The notes below the pieces were generated by a model, which saw nothing but the letters and a program-made list of their open reading frames with translations, was not told the DNA's origin and did no database searches. The position numbers and the translations under genes are program-made. From NCBI RefSeq assembly GCF_002095435.2, contig NZ_MJEJ02000050.1:124001-188000 (forward strand): a stretch of DNA of 64,000 nt. Direction: 5' to 3'. Numbering within the stretch: position 1 is the first letter of the stretch; each line of letters begins with the position of its first letter. This document shows, in pieces, positions 29,495-36,000 of the stretch. This DNA is from Williamsia sp. 1138 (GTDB taxonomy: Bacteria; Actinomycetota; Actinomycetes; Mycobacteriales; Mycobacteriaceae).

Positions 29495-30106
29495 ATGGTT
29501 CGGACAAAAAATCCTCAGACCCGGTCGATGCTGATCGAACGCGCAGCACAGATGCTCCGTGCGCGGGAATCGGTGACGTTGCGTTCTCTGGTGTCGGGGA
29601 CGTCGGTGTCGACGATGGCGGTGTACACCTACTTCGACGGCATGGACGGCCTGTGGAAGGCGCTGCGCCAAGAAGGCTTCACTCGCCTCGCCGCCAGACT
29701 CTCCGACCTGCAGATGTCCGACGATCCGGTCCGCGATCAGACCATGATGGGCGTCGCGTATCTGTCGAACGCGCTGCAGAACCCCGATCTGTACCGGGTC
29801 ATGTTCGACACCAGCGCGGATCTGGAGGACGCGGCTGCAGCCGAGGCAAGCCTGCACCATCTCGTCATCGGCGCCGAACGCTGTTCGAGCGCAGGACGAT
29901 TCCGGTCCGATCTCGATCCGACCGCGCTGGCGACCCAGCAGTGGATGATCGGGCACGGGCTGGCATCTCTGGTGGCAGGCGGTCCCCTACCCGAATCTGC
30001 ACTCGCCCACGCCGTACCCATGCTGACAGCGTTGTTCGTCTCCGCGGGGGACGAACCGAGCCGGTGCGCGAGGTCCGTGGAGTCAGGATGGGCACTACCG
30101 GGCTGA
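29495..30106 (+). CDS. TetR/AcrR family transcriptional regulator
   Basis: 203 aa. The N-terminal ~50 residues form the HTH, with SVTLRSLVSGTSVSTMAVYTYFDGMDGLWKAL split across helices 2-4. The C-terminal domain has the WHG-type ligand-pocket pattern (VRDQTMMGVAYLSNALQNPDLYRVMF). The ATG at 29495 is preferred; an ATG at 29480 would overlap the proposed operator. It probably represses itself and the divergent RidA-like gene. Ligand unknown. Confidence 0.88.
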   Translation: MVRTKNPQTRSMLIERAAQMLRARESVTLRSLVSGTSVSTMAVYTYFDGMDGLWKALRQEGFTRLAARLSDLQMSDDPVRDQTMMGVAYLSNALQNPDLYRVMFDTSADLEDAAAAEASLHHLVIGAERCSSAGRFRSDLDPTALATQQWMIGHGLASLVAGGPLPESALAHAVPMLTALFVSAGDEPSRCARSVESGWALPG

Positions 30107-30149
30107 CACCGGTTTGTCGACGGTGCGACCCGTGCGGCAAGCTCAGGGG

Positions 30150-30614
30150 GTGTTTCGACTGCTGTTCCATGAACCTCGCATCCCACCGAACACGGGAAAT
30201 GCGATCCGGCTCGCCGCCAACACCGGGTGTGAATTACACCTGGTGGAACCGCTCGGCTTCGACTTGTCGGAACCAAAGGTCAAGCGAGCCGGGCTCGACT
30301 ACCACGACATGGCTTCGGTGACCGTCCACCCCGACCTGTTCGCCGCCTGGAAAGAACTTGCCCCACAACGGGTCTATGCGTTCACCGCTCACGCGGACAC
30401 GTTCTATACAGACATCAGCTACCAACCGGGCGACGTGCTGCTGTTCGGTCCCGAACCGACCGGGTTGTCCGACACCGTGCTCGCAGACCCTCACGTGACC
30501 GAGCGGGTTCGCATTCCGATGCTGCCAGGGCGGCGATCACTCAACCTGGCGAACGCCGCCAGCATCGTGATGTACGAGGCCTGGCGACAGCACGGGTTTC
30601 CTGGCGCGGTGTAG
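30150..30614 (+). CDS. trmL: tRNA (cytidine(34)-2'-O)-methyltransferase
   Basis: 154 aa SPOUT methyltransferase acting on the wobble nucleotide of certain tRNA-Leu. The GTG at 30150 begins VFRLLFHEPRIPPNTGNAIR, the universal TrmL opening, and yields the standard length. GTG codons at 30123 and 30132 and a TTG at 30114 are alternatives. The SPOUT knot motifs are LLFGPEPTGLSD and IPMLPGRRSLNLANAASIVMYE. Confidence 0.9.
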   Translation: MFRLLFHEPRIPPNTGNAIRLAANTGCELHLVEPLGFDLSEPKVKRAGLDYHDMASVTVHPDLFAAWKELAPQRVYAFTAHADTFYTDISYQPGDVLLFGPEPTGLSDTVLADPHVTERVRIPMLPGRRSLNLANAASIVMYEAWRQHGFPGAV

Positions 30615-30626
30615 CCGGTCTGCGCA

Positions 30627-31046
30627 TCAGTCGATCGGCAGTCCACGCATGATGAACTTGCGCAGCATCGCGGTGGTCGGTTCCTCGATATGCAGTTCGG
30701 CATTGTCTGCCGCGGTCGGGGCGACCACGTTCAGCAGCAGCTGACCGCCTGCCAGGATGTCTGCGGAGTAGGCACTGCCGTCGCGGCTCCATTCCATGTG
30801 GAGCCCCCCTTCAGGGGTCGCGGTGGGCGTTGATTCCGCCCAGTACGAACTCTGTAGCCCGTCGAAATATTTCTCGAAGAATTCCTTGGCAGCCGAGGTC
30901 GGGGCCAGTGAGCCGGCACCCTGCCAGCCGTCCTCGAGTCCGAGAACGTGCTCGAGTTGGGCGTCGAGATTCTGCTTGGTGTCGCTGGGGTCCGCAGCAC
31001 CGGGCGTTTGGCGGTCGAGATTGCTCGAATAATTGCTCAGGCTCAT
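30627..31046 (-). CDS. uncharacterised protein encoded directly downstream of the retron reverse transcriptase
   Basis: 139 aa, soluble, acidic, no signal peptide or membrane helix. The first ~30 residues are polar; the core has LGLEDGWQGAGSLAPTS, then an amphipathic helix, then PTATPEGGLHMEWSRDG and a beta-rich end. I recognise the W-x-G...TP-x-GG-x-x-x-EW layout from scattered hypothetical proteins in many bacteria, but I know of no function. It starts 58 bp after the RT stop on the same strand and is probably cotranscribed. That makes it the best candidate for a retron accessory or effector protein, or it may be a passenger. Confidence 0.6.
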   Translation of the reverse strand: MSLSNYSSNLDRQTPGAADPSDTKQNLDAQLEHVLGLEDGWQGAGSLAPTSAAKEFFEKYFDGLQSSYWAESTPTATPEGGLHMEWSRDGSAYSADILAGGQLLLNVVAPTAADNAELHIEEPTTAMLRKFIMRGLPID

Positions 31047-31104
31047 TTACCGATGTTAGGCGCCTTCCGCTCGGAGGCATAGAGCGGTCGCGGGGTGTTC
31101 ATCT

Positions 31105-32382
31105 TCAGCGGTCCCAGTCCACGTGCTCCGCCAACGCCAGCAAGATGTTTCGGCGCCGCGGGCTGGTCGCCCCGATCCAGGCGATCTTGCCGTGGACATG
31201 CGCGTGGAAGTTCGGGTGCGCCGACCTGTTCTGCCCCTGCGCGCCGGTACGAATCGCGTTGTGCAGCAATGCACGCAGATTGTCGTAGTCATGTCGGGCG
31301 ACGCGCGGTTGATCGTTGACCACCAGCCCGGCCAACTGCTGGCGTTGATGCGCACGCATCGTCTTCGTCTTGTCCGGATGCACGGTGAACCCTTCGTCGG
31401 CGATGATGCGGTGTACCACCCACAACACTGCTTCCGGGTTCATGTGATCGCCTGAGATCGCCAGGTCATCGCCATACCGGCTGTAATGCAATCTGTTTCG
31501 CTGCGCGTATCCCCAGATGCGGCGATCCATGGCACGCATGACGAGATTTGCCAACGCCGGAGAGGTCGGCGCCCCCTGCGGTAGGTGCCGCTGCCTCAGC
31601 AGCGTCGCCTGCCGATGATCGATGTGCCGAAGATGGCTGATGGGCGTGGTGGTCGTGCACAGTTCTGCCAGGACCCTCGCGGTCCTCTCGTAGCCCACCG
31701 CGTCGAAAACAGCCCGTACTCTGGCTGTTCCGATCGAGGTAAAGCAGTCCCGCAGGTCGAGCCTGACCACCACCGGCCGGTCGGTGTGCGGCCAGGCGAA
31801 GCTTGCGGTCGAGGTGCCGGGTACGAACCCCTGGGCAGCCCGATGCGGTGGGATGTGGTCGACAATGGTGCGCAGCATGCGCCGTTGGATTTCCCGAAGG
31901 TGGGGTTTGGGGGCCTCGATCATCCGGGCGCCGTGGCGTTTCGGCACCTGCCAGTACCGGTAATGCTGTAGCGGGCCGTCTTTCGTACGTAGCCAGTGAC
32001 CGCGATCAGCGAACCACTCCAGTTCGCCGACAGTCAGGTTGAGCCAGCGGGCCACGTCCGAGTAGTCATGTAACCGGGGCAGGTCGAAGCGCATGCTCGG
32101 CTCGTCCGGATCCTCGAACGCGCGTCGGCGCGGCGCGCCTATCAGCGGCGTGAGGAAGGTGCGGACAGCGGCCAGATCGGTGGGCCGCTCGGGGAATCGT
32201 TCGAGCAGCATTCCGAGTAGCTCCGTGACCACAGCCTGTTCCATCGTCGCCACGAGCATCTCCACGATCGCTGAGACCGTCCACCGTGGATCGACCTCGA
32301 GCCTGGTCAGCAGCTGCTCGACCGAGTCGGCGGACAGGCGCAAGTCAGGACCCAGACCACCCAGGGAATAGCTGTCGGTCAT
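31105..32382 (-). CDS. retron-type reverse transcriptase
   Basis: 425 aa RNA-directed DNA polymerase. Residues ~105-425 are the RT: RT1-like VPKRHGARMIEAPKPHLREIQ (147-167 region), GFVPGTSTASFAWPH (185-199), the first catalytic Asp in VVRLDLRDCFTSI (205-217), LPQGAPTSP (267-275), the active site YGDD (303-306), and the thumb LAGLVVND (350-357). The FAWPH and LAG positions match the retron X (NAxxH) and Y (VTG) motifs with substitutions. There is no group II intron maturase or HNH domain. Residues 1-104 are an alpha-helical extension of unknown role. A retron-like msr-msd lies immediately upstream. It should make msDNA from that RNA; relatives act in phage defence. Confidence 0.88.
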   Translation of the reverse strand: MTDSYSLGGLGPDLRLSADSVEQLLTRLEVDPRWTVSAIVEMLVATMEQAVVTELLGMLLERFPERPTDLAAVRTFLTPLIGAPRRRAFEDPDEPSMRFDLPRLHDYSDVARWLNLTVGELEWFADRGHWLRTKDGPLQHYRYWQVPKRHGARMIEAPKPHLREIQRRMLRTIVDHIPPHRAAQGFVPGTSTASFAWPHTDRPVVVRLDLRDCFTSIGTARVRAVFDAVGYERTARVLAELCTTTTPISHLRHIDHRQATLLRQRHLPQGAPTSPALANLVMRAMDRRIWGYAQRNRLHYSRYGDDLAISGDHMNPEAVLWVVHRIIADEGFTVHPDKTKTMRAHQRQQLAGLVVNDQPRVARHDYDNLRALLHNAIRTGAQGQNRSAHPNFHAHVHGKIAWIGATSPRRRNILLALAEHVDWDR

Positions 32383-32409
32383 GAAGCGGGGCCGGTCATG
32401 AGTCGGATA

Positions 32410-32563
32410 CGCGGCGGGGAGGTGACCACGAACCTGTGTCGGCGGCGCCGCGCAGCACGCGGAGCGTGCCCGACGGCGTCGGACGCTGATACCAACTGTG
32501 AGATGTACCCAGGGGTTGCCCCTGAGACGGGTTCGAAGAACCCACTCTCACCTCCCCACCGCG
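32410..32563 (-). ncRNA. predicted retron msr-msd RNA
   Basis: Read on the minus strand, a1 CGCGGTGGGGAGGTGA (32563-32548) and a2 TCACCTCCCCGCCGCG (32425-32410) pair over 16 bp with a single G-U. The nucleotide after a1 is an unpaired G (32547), the expected branch residue. Then come two small hairpins, GGGTTC-TTC-GAACCC (32543-32529) and CAGGGG-CAA-CCCCTG (32524-32510), as in msr. A long GC-rich hairpin follows with apex GCACGC-TCC-GCGTGC (32469-32455), the likely msd. The RNA ends 27 nt before the RT start codon, the classic retron order msr-msd-RT. The msDNA boundaries are not fixed. Confidence 0.8.
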
Positions 32564-32573
32564 CACAGGTGCC

Positions 32574-32579
32574 ATCGTA
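32574..32579 (-). promoter_or_regulatory. candidate -10 box of the retron promoter
   Basis: TACGAT on the minus strand fits the actinobacterial -10 pattern TAnnnT. A start 7-10 nt downstream would fall at 32567-32564, directly in front of a1 (32563). No convincing -35 is visible, which is common in this group. It sits between the DUF167 stop codon and a1, so the retron RNA can be made independently of the upstream gene. Confidence 0.5.
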
Positions 32580-32583
32580 TCGA

Positions 32584-32811
32584 CTATCGGTCGATACGAA
32601 ACCTTTTCGTGCGAGCGGTCGCACCACCGGTGAGGATGACGCGAGACCTGGCCACGCCGAAATGCTTCGCCAACACGAGCGCAACGGCGGCATTGGCCTT
32701 GCCTTCGGTGGCTGGTTCACGCACGAAAATCGTCAGAGCACCGTCGTCTGCAACCTCGACCAGCGGCCCCTTGCGACTGTTCGGCTTGACGGTCACCACG
32801 ATGTCGTCCAC
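32584..32811 (-). CDS. DUF167 (YggU) family protein
   Basis: 75 aa from the GTG at 32811 (VDDIVVTVKPNSRKG). VREPATEGKANAAVALVLAKHF and VILTGGATARTKRFRI are the DUF167 signatures. Length matches the family. The frame remains open up to 33087 through a tandem repeat that would add heptapeptides such as PQQSLTV; I treat that as non-coding or an optional extension. Function of the family is unknown. It lies just upstream of the retron promoter. Confidence 0.82.
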   Translation of the reverse strand: MDDIVVTVKPNSRKGPLVEVADDGALTIFVREPATEGKANAAVALVLAKHFGVARSRVILTGGATARTKRFRIDR

Positions 32812-32844
32812 AGAAGCGATTATGGGCCCGCTCGATGCGAACAA

Positions 32845-32922
32845 CGGCACGGTCAACGACTGTTGCGGCACGCTCAACGACTGTTGCGGCACGGTCAGCG
32901 GCTGTTTCGGCACGCTCGACGG
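32845..32922. repeat. 21-bp tandem repeat, about 3.7 copies
   Basis: Units start at 32845, 32866, 32887 and 32908, with sequence close to CGGCACGGTCAACGACTGTTG. Because 21 is a multiple of three, the minus-strand frame stays open and would read as repeated heptapeptides upstream of DUF167. The next ~150 bp (to 33075) also holds several GAGCGNAGCGA-type short repeats, a common extragenic motif in these genomes. Confidence 0.8.
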
Positions 32923-33090
32923 AACCACACGCATGAAGGTCTGAGCGAGCGCAGCGATGCGAGGACCCGGCGGTCGGCCCCGCGTTGTCTGGACGGAGGA
33001 GCGAGGGAGCGCAGCGACCGAGTCGACGAAGGAAGACGACGCGCTGAAGGGCCGACAGCCCGCGAGCGGAGCGAGCCAAACCAGCACCTC

Positions 33091-36000
33091 TCAAGCCCAG
33101 TCCCTTGACCTCGTCCCGACTCTGAGGTCCATGCGTTGGAGGCGTTCTGCCACCACGGTCACGGCTCCTTCAGCGTTTTGCACCCGGCCGCGGATGAGCA
33201 GGGCCGGGGCCGTCTGGGCGAGTTTGCGGTACTTGGCCCACAACCCCACCGAGCAGACCACGTTGATCATCCCGGTCTCGTCCTCGAGGTTTACGAAGGT
33301 CACCCCTGACGCGGTGGCGGGCCGCTGCCGGTGAGTGACCGCTCCCCCGACGAGCACCCGCGAGCCGTCGGGTACCGACAGCAGATCGACGGCGGCGATC
33401 ACGCCCAGGGCGTCCAGTTGTGGCCGGATGAACTCGGTCGGGTAGTTCCCCGGGCTGACCCCGGTGGCCCAGACGTCCGAGGCGGCCATCTCGACATCGC
33501 TCATCCCCGGCAGCGTGGGCGAGGTGTTGATCTCGTGCAGCGGGAGCCGGTCGGACTTCTCCTGCGCTGCCGCACCCGCATCCCAGAGGGCTTGGCGCCG
33601 ACTGGTCCCGAAGCATTCGAGCGCACCTGCGGTCGCGAGCGCCTCGAGCTGCCGGGTGTTGACGTCGCAGCGCCGAGAGAGGTCGGCGGCATTGGTGAAC
33701 GCCCCACCTGATTCGCGTTCGGCGACGATCGCCTCGGCCAGGTCGATACCTATGTGCTTCACCGAGCCGAGCCCGAGCCGTACGTCCAAGCCGGCGTTCT
33801 CCAGGTCCGCGTGCGGTTGCGACAGGTTGACGTCCGGCCCGTGCACCTTGACGCCGTGCCTCCGGGCATCGGCGACCAGTGACTGTGGTGAGTAGAAACC
33901 CATGGGTTGCGCCTTGATCAGGGCGGCGCAGAATGCGGCGGGATGGTGGAGTTTGAGCCAGGACGAATAGAACACGAGCGAGGCGAAACTCTGCGAATGA
34001 CTCTCTGGGAAGCCGAAATTGGCAAACGCGGCCATCTTCTCGAAGACACGGTCGGCCACCTCACCGGTGATGCCGTGCAGCTCTTCCATTCCTTCGTAGA
34101 ACCGTGCCCGCAGTCGCTCCATCTTCTCCGGGGAACGCTTCGACCCCATCGCCCGACGCAGCTGATCGGCCTCTGCGGACGTGAAGCCCGCCACGTCCAC
34201 CGCCAGTTGCATCAGCTGCTCTTGGAAGAGGGGCACCCCGAGCGTTCTGCGCAATGCCGGTTCCATCGAGGGGTGTTCGCAGGTGGGCTCTTCCAGGCCG
34301 TTGCGGCGCCGGATGTACGGGTGCACCGAACCGCCCTGGATCGGACCCGGCCGGATCAGCGCGACCTCTACGACGAGGTCATAGAACTCACGGGGCTTGA
34401 GCCGGGGCAGGGTCGCCATCTGCGCCCGCGACTCCACCTGGAACACCCCGACGGTGTCCGCCTTGCAGAGCATGTCATAGACGGCGGCCTCGGTGAGGTC
34501 GATCTTTGCCAGATCGACGTGGATGTCGCGATGCTCGGCAAGAAAGTCGATGGCGTAGTGGATGGCCGAGAGCATACCGAGACCCAGCAGGTCGAACTTC
34601 ACCAATCCGATTGCCGCACAGTCGTCTTTGTCCCACTGCAAGACGCTGCGATTGGGCATCCTCGCCCATTCCGTGGGGCATACATCGGCGATCGGGCGGT
34701 CGCAGATCACCATCCCGCCGGAGTGGATCCCCAGATGCCTGGGCATGCCGTTGATCTGACCGGCCAGCTCGAGCACGTCATCGGGGATATCACTGTCGGT
34801 GGGCTGGGCCTTGTCGTATCGCTGCACCTGTTTGCTCCAGGCATCCTGCTGTCCCACCGAATAGCCGAGCGCACGGGCCATGTCGCGGACCGACGACTTG
34901 CCGCGGTAGGTGATCACGTTGGCCACCTGTGCGGCGTTCTGTCTGCCGTACCGCTGGTACACGTACTGGATGGCTTCTTCGCGGCGGTCCGATTCGATGT
35001 CGACATCGATGTCCGGCGGGCCGTCCCTGGCCGGGGACAGGAATCGTTCGAACAACAGGCTGTTCCCCACCGGATCGATCGCGGTGACCCCGAGGGAGTA
35101 ACAGACCGCCGAGTTCGCCGCACTGCCCCGACCCTGACAGAGGATGTCGTGGGTGCGACAGAACGAGACGATGTCGTGTACCACCAGGAAATAGCCGGGG
35201 AATCCGAGCGAGTCGATCACGTTCAATTCGTGTTCGATCTGCTGATATGCCTTCGGGTGACTCTGGGGTGGGCCATACCTCTCCAGCGCTCCCCTGGCCG
35301 TCAGTTCACGTAGCCACGAACTCTCGGTGTAACCCTCGGGCACATCGAACGGTGGCAGTTTGGGCGCGATCAAGTGCAGCCCGAACGCCAGATCCTGGGC
35401 CAGCATCGCGGCGTTGTCGATGGCGTCGGGATGCGCGCTGAGCAGTCGCATCATCTCGTCACCACTGCGCAGGTGCGCCCCGCCCAGCGGGCCGAGCCAA
35501 CCGTCCATGTCGTCGAGGCTGCGCCTGGCACGGACCGCGGCCATCGCCATCGCCAACCGCCTGCGATGTGGCGCCGAGAAATGGGCGCCGGTGGTGGCCA
35601 CCGTGGCGACGCGGTTGCGCCGGGCCACCCAGGCGAGTGCGGCATTGCGCTCATCGTCATCGGCGGCGCCCTGCGCCGTCAACTCCATCACCACGTTCTC
35701 GCGACCGAACTTCTCGATCAACGCCCGTAGTGCCGCTTCCGCAGCGGACGGACCGCCGGTCGACAAGGCTTGTCGCACACTTCCTTTACGGCAGCCGCTG
35801 AGGATCAGCCAGTGCCCGGCAGCGGCCTGGGCCAGGGTGTCGATGTCGAATCGGAGCAACCCCTTCTCGCCCGCCGCCATGTGCCCGTCCGCGAGTTGCC
35901 GGGACAATCTCCGGTAGCCCTCCTGGCCGCGGGCCAGCACCAGCAGATGCGCACCATCCGGGTCGGCCACCCCCGTGCGGGCCGAGTCGTGTTCCAGCGA

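Follow-up and report, generated by a model that had tools for sequence, protein, structure and literature searches.

Within a 64,000-nucleotide stretch of the Williamsia sp. 1138 genome (Mycobacteriaceae; contig NZ_MJEJ02000050.1, positions 124,001 to 188,000; hereafter the window), a gene on the minus strand at 31105-32382 encodes a retron-type reverse transcriptase (RT) of 425 aa, which we recognized by profile matches, motifs, and fold search. The protein has a YGDD motif and a helical N-terminal extension (approximately residues 1-90); the fold search returned nothing on residues 1-90. Directly 5′ of this gene and on the same strand, as the coordinates bear out, lies an RNA that an initial annotation of the DNA had predicted to be the msr-msd RNA of a complete actinobacterial retron. 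Comparison of the locus with its relatives confirms, at the level of sequence, that the msr-msd-like RNA beside the retron-type RT is real. It also suggests a feature that is new here: the RNA begins with an ATG or GTG codon (RTG), the frame from this codon is open across msr-msd, and its stop is coupled to the RT start.

The elements named in the initial annotation are all present on the minus strand. The 16-bp inverted repeat, CGCGGTGGGGAGGTGA/TCACCTCCCCGCCGCG, lies at 32563-32548/32425-32410 with one G-U pair, and its arms enclose exactly 122 nt (32547-32426), a length that had been given as approximate. The stem can be extended to 19 nt by pairing 32566-32548 with 32425-32407, and on the basis of pairing and covariation we define the a1 strand, which starts with GTG, as 32548-32566 and the a2 strand as 32407-32425. 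An unpaired G follows a1 at 32547 and is, by position and sequence, the putative 2′-5′ branching residue of retron anatomy (PMC6868368). Between the arms, fold and covariation place msr hairpin 1 (32529-32543; six pairs, GGGTTC-TTC-GAACCC), msr hairpin 2 (32508-32526; CTCAGGGG-CAA-CCCCTGGG, with a U-G and a C-G pair in addition to six perfect ones), and the long GC-rich msd hairpin of two stacked stems (32446-32478, the msd limits being approximate). The repeat ends at 32410, 27 nt before the RT ATG at 32382. Folding of the RNA gave −91.8 kcal/mol compared with −66.4 ± 4.1 kcal/mol for 200 shuffles (z −6.3). A pairing of the a1 end with the linker after hairpin 2 was inconsistent across rows by eye and was dropped. 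In Rfam 15, the interval 30000-34000 had no msr match; the one match obtained was at chance level and to an unrelated family.

Sequence comparison across relatives shows that these pairs covary beyond chance expectation. An RT match was found in 97 genomes of a family sample of 301, and 90 of these were fetched (all but G049, G251, G277, G191, G230, G011, and G259). All eight Williamsia loci keep the upstream RNA with matched changes in a1 and a2, and the RNA is kept across genera too. For alignment A2, 32 of the 90 loci were picked by hand among rows with a clear repeat, and RNAalifold predicts the structure from these rows, both partners having changed in 23 of 36 pairs. Counted over a1/a2 and the hairpins, 30 of 44 pairs in A2 have changed on both sides and 90.3% of cells are paired, a covariation count that none of 500 shuffles reached but that is biased, since the rows were located partly by their a1/a2 pairing. 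The branch-site G (G21) is invariant in all 32 rows, mostly in the context GAG. The covariance model R1, built from A2, matches 89 of the 90 fetched sources, the exception being L093, which has a truncated RT. Among the 58 loci outside the model, R1 matches 57, with 98.2% of cells paired (33-47% with slid partners) and changes in both partners of 32 of 44 pairs; many of these loci are close kin of model rows, and the alignment leans toward the model to which it was fitted. For the window, whose row belongs to the model, R1 gives a full-length match at 32406-32567 on the minus strand (164 bits, E 1.5e-27); this is the only full-length match in the genome, the second, weak and partial, falls on this same interval in antisense.

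The RNA and the RT also occur together. With stricter filters, R1 yielded 95 matches over the 301 family genomes, one place each. Strong matches (E 1.3e-11 or better) immediately upstream of the RT account for 94 of these; the remaining match, in G286, is weak and partial (E 1.8e-4) and is located about 10 kb from a truncated RT. The RT genomes lacking an R1 match were G011, where the RT is in pieces, and G259, where it is distant, and the R1 and RT searches of the 301 genomes found no RNA in a genome without the RT. RT homologues without the RNA and stems without compensatory change, on which the initial annotation had staked its reading, were not seen except in L093, G011, and G259. At the level of the class, 11 of 296 sampled genomes have an RT that reaches E 1e-30 or better; 7 of the 11 lie outside the family, and each of these 7 has an R1 match upstream (E 5.5e-8 to 1.4e-3). 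Genus labels on the RT tree change 16 times, where 14 is the minimum possible, and this clustering by genus fits largely vertical inheritance within genera. A scan of viral contigs with the RT found no relatives, and 16 phage records hold distant RTs of at most 35% identity. Four loci with frame breaks or truncation in the RT gene (L033, L092, L094, and L095) keep a full-length RNA match. The RT of L035, recorded as Kitasatospora arboriphila NRRL B-24581, falls inside the Williamsia clade, and the record name is probably wrong.

The window RT scored 567 bits against the PADLOC profile RT_other and 536 bits against RT_outgroup 'retron', and every one of the 40 RTs in alignment A4 is matched by the two profiles (best E 3.2e-180). 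With regard to the suggestion of an undescribed type, the RT class is already in PADLOC under these names; the profiles cover the RT only, and the coupled ORF (open reading frame) is no part of them. The RT has the YxDD active site of its class, the RNA upstream has an a1/a2 stem enclosing hairpins, and the unpaired G at the a1 end occupies the position of a branch site, for which TAGC and variants are the usual context. In sequence terms, a retron-type RT next to a covarying msr-msd-like RNA supports the retron interpretation. Two Burkholderia plasmid retrons, L145 and L146, have RTs 44-45% identical over 78% of the query. R1 found the L146 RNA at E 6e-4 and missed that of L145; these two related loci differ from the family in that ATG/GTG is absent from the predicted RNA 5′ end. 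It is very unlikely that the RNA acts in cis on the RT, as a leader or attenuator, without being a template for multicopy single-stranded DNA (msDNA). That idea draws on the overlap of the RNA with the translation start region and on msDNA production being only presumed, but it must contend with the retron layout (a1/a2, the unpaired G after a1, msr hairpins, and msd hairpin), with the matches of the RT to retron profiles, and with L146, where a 17-bp a1/a2 repeat is followed by GC and CAAGC stands at the branch site.

The msr-msd reading of the initial annotation held, but it missed that the RNA is also an ORF coupled to the RT. In the window, a −10-like hexamer, TACGAT, is predicted at 32574-32579 on the minus strand, 7 nt upstream of the GTG with which the RNA begins. 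From this GTG, a predicted leaderless upstream ORF of 56 codons spans the whole RNA and ends in a TGA stop (32396-32566, minus strand). Between the upstream ORF and the RT sits a relay ORF of 6 codons, MTGPAS* (32379-32399, minus strand), whose ATG overlaps the upstream stop and whose stop overlaps the RT ATG, as ATGA in both cases. The relay layout is also found in L031 and in L032, the locus of W. limnetica DSM 45521, and we scored these and the window as coupling misses.

Across the 89 R1-matched loci, the RNA 5′ end is ATG or GTG in 88 (sought in eight positions around the model match start), and these 88, without L069, were used for the open-frame count. The start was taken as the RTG closest to where the model match begins, with an offset of one in g1 and g24; under the g24 offset, L079 counts as coupled and no longer as having a stop within the RNA. 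The frame from the 5′ RTG is stop-free across the RNA in 87 of 88 loci, compared with 27 and 41 for the other frames. Its stop lies within −8 to +5 nt of an in-frame RT ATG/GTG in 73 of 82 loci, mostly through ATGA/GTGA, ATGnnTGA, or TGATG overlaps, compared with 11 of 82 for the third frame, which served as control. This count also omits L033, L045, L092, L094, L095, and L114, where the 5′ part of the RT is broken or unclear; L045 and L095 look coupled and the other four do not. Starts were limited to ATG and GTG because admitting CTG and TTG makes NTGA automatic, and a count of 63 of 88 at −1 that had taken CTG and TTG as starts was discarded for this reason. Of 76 coupled loci, 74 have a [TC]AnnnT box whose end lies 6-8 nt upstream of the RTG (3.5% in random upstream background), and a Shine-Dalgarno (SD)-like 4-mer is present at the RT start in 3 of the 76. 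The coupling is not one frozen layout, since the a2-to-stop distance takes 29 states with at least 35 changes among the 75 coupled of 83 tree rows, whereas only 5 changes of the coupled state are needed. The figure of 75 includes L063 with a start chosen anew once it had scored as a miss, and with its original start 74 of 83 are coupled; over all 83 rows the spacing changes 38 times. Plasmid copies in Tsukamurella and Dietzia have the same layout, and the open frame and coupling recur in 5 of the 7 loci outside the family. In L059, L060, and L065, the stretch from the RTG to hairpin 2 is 33 nt longer and the upstream ORF is still open and coupled.

These counts bear on whether the frame means anything. 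The retron could be real and its open frame incidental, a product of common actinobacterial leaderless RTGs and of the few stops in GC-rich RNA, with translation amounting to noise; pervasive spurious translation, leaderless included, in a related genus (PMC9094748) and an encoded peptide without sign of selection would both agree with this. We regard it as distinctly improbable, given that one frame of the three is kept open, that the stop stays on the RT start through the many spacing changes, and that SD-like motifs at the RT start are so few. Substitution rates at the three codon positions of the upstream ORF were 0.106, 0.103, and 0.112 (187 non-independent pairs), and frame shifts within the RNA alter the peptide between the two Williamsia clades. 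A small protein working with the RT, such as a missing effector or antitoxin, would explain an RTG ORF spanning the RNA in 86 of 88 loci under the first start rule and 87 of 88 under the second, but the near-equal rates and the frame shifts make it very unlikely.

Taken together, we consider it probable from the comparison that the retron RNA serves as a leaderless upstream ORF that passes ribosomes to the RT and that its translation and its folding as a retron compete. Transcription would probably start at the first base of a1, the base that opens the ATG/GTG codon. Ribosomes would bind the 5′ end as it emerges and translate the whole of a1, msr, msd, and a2 before terminating at the RT start codon, where they would re-initiate; no ribosome-binding site belonging to the RT itself is evident. 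In the alternative fate, the RNA would fold, the a1/a2 stem would bury the RTG, and the RT would bind; the G after a1, at 32547, would then prime 2′-5′ synthesis and msd would be copied into DNA. Since the RTG is buried in the folded a1/a2 stem, any one RNA would be either translated or used as the retron primer-template. In computed folds, the mean unpaired probability of the RTG is 0.14 in the full RNA and 0.58 in the first 110 nt, and it exceeds 0.5 in 1 of 88 loci for the full RNA and in 58 of 88 for the first 110 nt.

Ribosomes on the leader might instead matter mainly by shielding the RNA from Rho-dependent termination so that transcription reaches the RT, with re-initiation secondary. 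Rho could plausibly act on an untranslated leader that is long and GC-rich, and shielding would account for the open frame. It would not need a stop on the RT start, yet that position is what is conserved, and in the precedent of ppe2 of Mycobacterium tuberculosis, Rho was judged not to explain the dependence (PMC11260477); we therefore think this account unlikely. The ppe2 case, in which PPE2 is driven from an upstream ORF through an AUGA overlap, chiefly by termination-reinitiation, resembles the present one in that a structured RNA, there a B12 riboswitch, overlaps the upstream ORF; it differs in pairing an SD-led ORF with a riboswitch, where we find an apparently leaderless ORF and a presumed reverse transcription template (PMC11260477). 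In mycobacteria, an RTG at the first base of the transcript is necessary and sufficient for leaderless initiation (PMC4633059), and we infer by analogy that Williamsia may behave like mycobacteria in leaderless and coupled translation.

Several observations weigh against ribosome transfer on a retron RNA. In the window, the first 67 nt fold with the GTG paired, and it is free at 127 nt. In most loci the upstream stop overlaps or abuts the RT start, but in the clade to which the window belongs a1 is shifted by 1 nt and the only coupling is via the 6-codon relay ORF. L097, L068, L071, L117, and L111 are uncoupled, the last with a stop inside the RNA; L063 is a coupling miss unless its start is re-chosen; and L069 does not begin its RNA with an RTG. 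Beyond the family, L134 is uncoupled, and L135 has an open frame and ATGA next to a broken RT whose frame cannot be set. Because 24 of 88 inner branches of the RT tree are weak and rows share ancestry, the change counts can be inflated. The peptide shows no sign of selection, as codon-position bias is absent. Lastly, the RTs depart from two retron motifs, having mostly (F/Y)(A/G)xxH in place of NAxxH in region X and mostly LAG or LTG in place of VTG in region Y; the proven retrons Mx65 and Ec48 also lack the N of NAxxH, and two proven retrons carry substitutions in region Y (PMC6868368).

The competition between translation and folding may go further, and we put forward tentatively that the retron acts as a translation sensor in which the state of translation sets the msDNA level without a separate effector gene. 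In a healthy cell, ribosomes entering at the 5′ RTG would hold the RNA open and the RT would be made. When ribosome supply is low, as in phage shut-off or dormancy, nascent RNAs might fold with the RTG buried and be turned into msDNA by RT already present. Retron RNA is usually treated as non-coding, and here the comparison suggests that it doubles as the 5′ segment of a leaderless mRNA. If this is true, a forced choice between translation and reverse transcription would offer a simple means of setting the msDNA level. The element would also be a retron without a linked effector that is common in one large actinobacterial family, given the RT in 97 of 301 genomes, so that the function of effector-less retrons becomes a testable question in this family. 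Two further products are R1, which locates the RNA next to this RT, and an RNA/RT pair that is native to actinobacteria of high GC content.

Known retrons offer partial parallels. The myxobacterial Mx162, Mx65, and Sa163, likened here by description and not by sequence, share an N-terminal RT extension and vertical inheritance, and Mx65 likewise lacks the N of NAxxH, with GAGC as its branch site; the accessible part of the review mentions no coupled ORF for them (PMC6868368). Ec86 (Eco1), in contrast, is adjoined by its effector gene, and the ATG frame of its RNA stops 17 nt before the RNA end and 23 nt before the RT ATG, leaving this one locus uncoupled. In the Ec86 locus of E. coli strain C (L150), the annotated effector coding sequence at 590-1513 extends 13 nt into the retron RNA. 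Putative actinobacterial retrons were already known from surveys (PMC6868368, a 2019 review). Retrons are described as three-part systems (PMC13405049), some lack a clear effector-gene association, and proven msDNA producers are given for Proteobacteria and Bacteroides (PMC8867640). The accessible parts of PMC12548924 and PMC12262390 add nothing on this RT class. Among the literature matches listed, with subscription papers outside the scope, neither an actinobacterial msr-msd sequence nor an upstream or coupled ORF in a retron is described.

In the reading preferred here, the element is probably a two-part retron, msr-msd RNA plus RT, for which we found no linked effector. The word complete in the initial annotation thus applies to the RNA and the RT, which are present, while a conserved protein partner is absent from the ORF clusters in the flanks of the 90 loci. 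In this clustering (about 5 kb per side, shorter in L045, L109, and L116), which covered neither distant genes nor RT residues 1-90, no non-RT cluster occurred in more than 6 of 13 genera; the widest among the best 40 clusters listed lies upstream and spans 6 of 13 genera and 28 loci. As no partner cluster is conserved, we take the element to be the RNA and the RT. Sixteen loci (all of g1 and g18, the one of g16, and L069) have dnaE2 upstream and trmL downstream, and L063 has a partial, reversed dnaE2 match. A 139-aa ORF downstream in the window (30627-31046) recurs in all 8 Williamsia loci and in no other of the 90 fetched loci. We rejected it as an effector since it persists in G106 (L137), a Williamsia genome without RT or RNA, which preserves a natural retron-free site in the order DUF167, about 90 nt, the 139-aa ORF, and trmL. 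This ORF has a weak match to PADLOC PDC-M32A (E 1.3e-5), and with a −10-like TAACAT 6 nt before its ATG, it may be leaderless too. A 21-bp tandem repeat lies between dnaE2 and the retron in the window (32845-32921, 3.7 copies) and in L035 (4550-4672, about 5 copies or more). The two share a CGTGCCG core, and the two-unit pattern matches a single place in the genome, 32845-32921.
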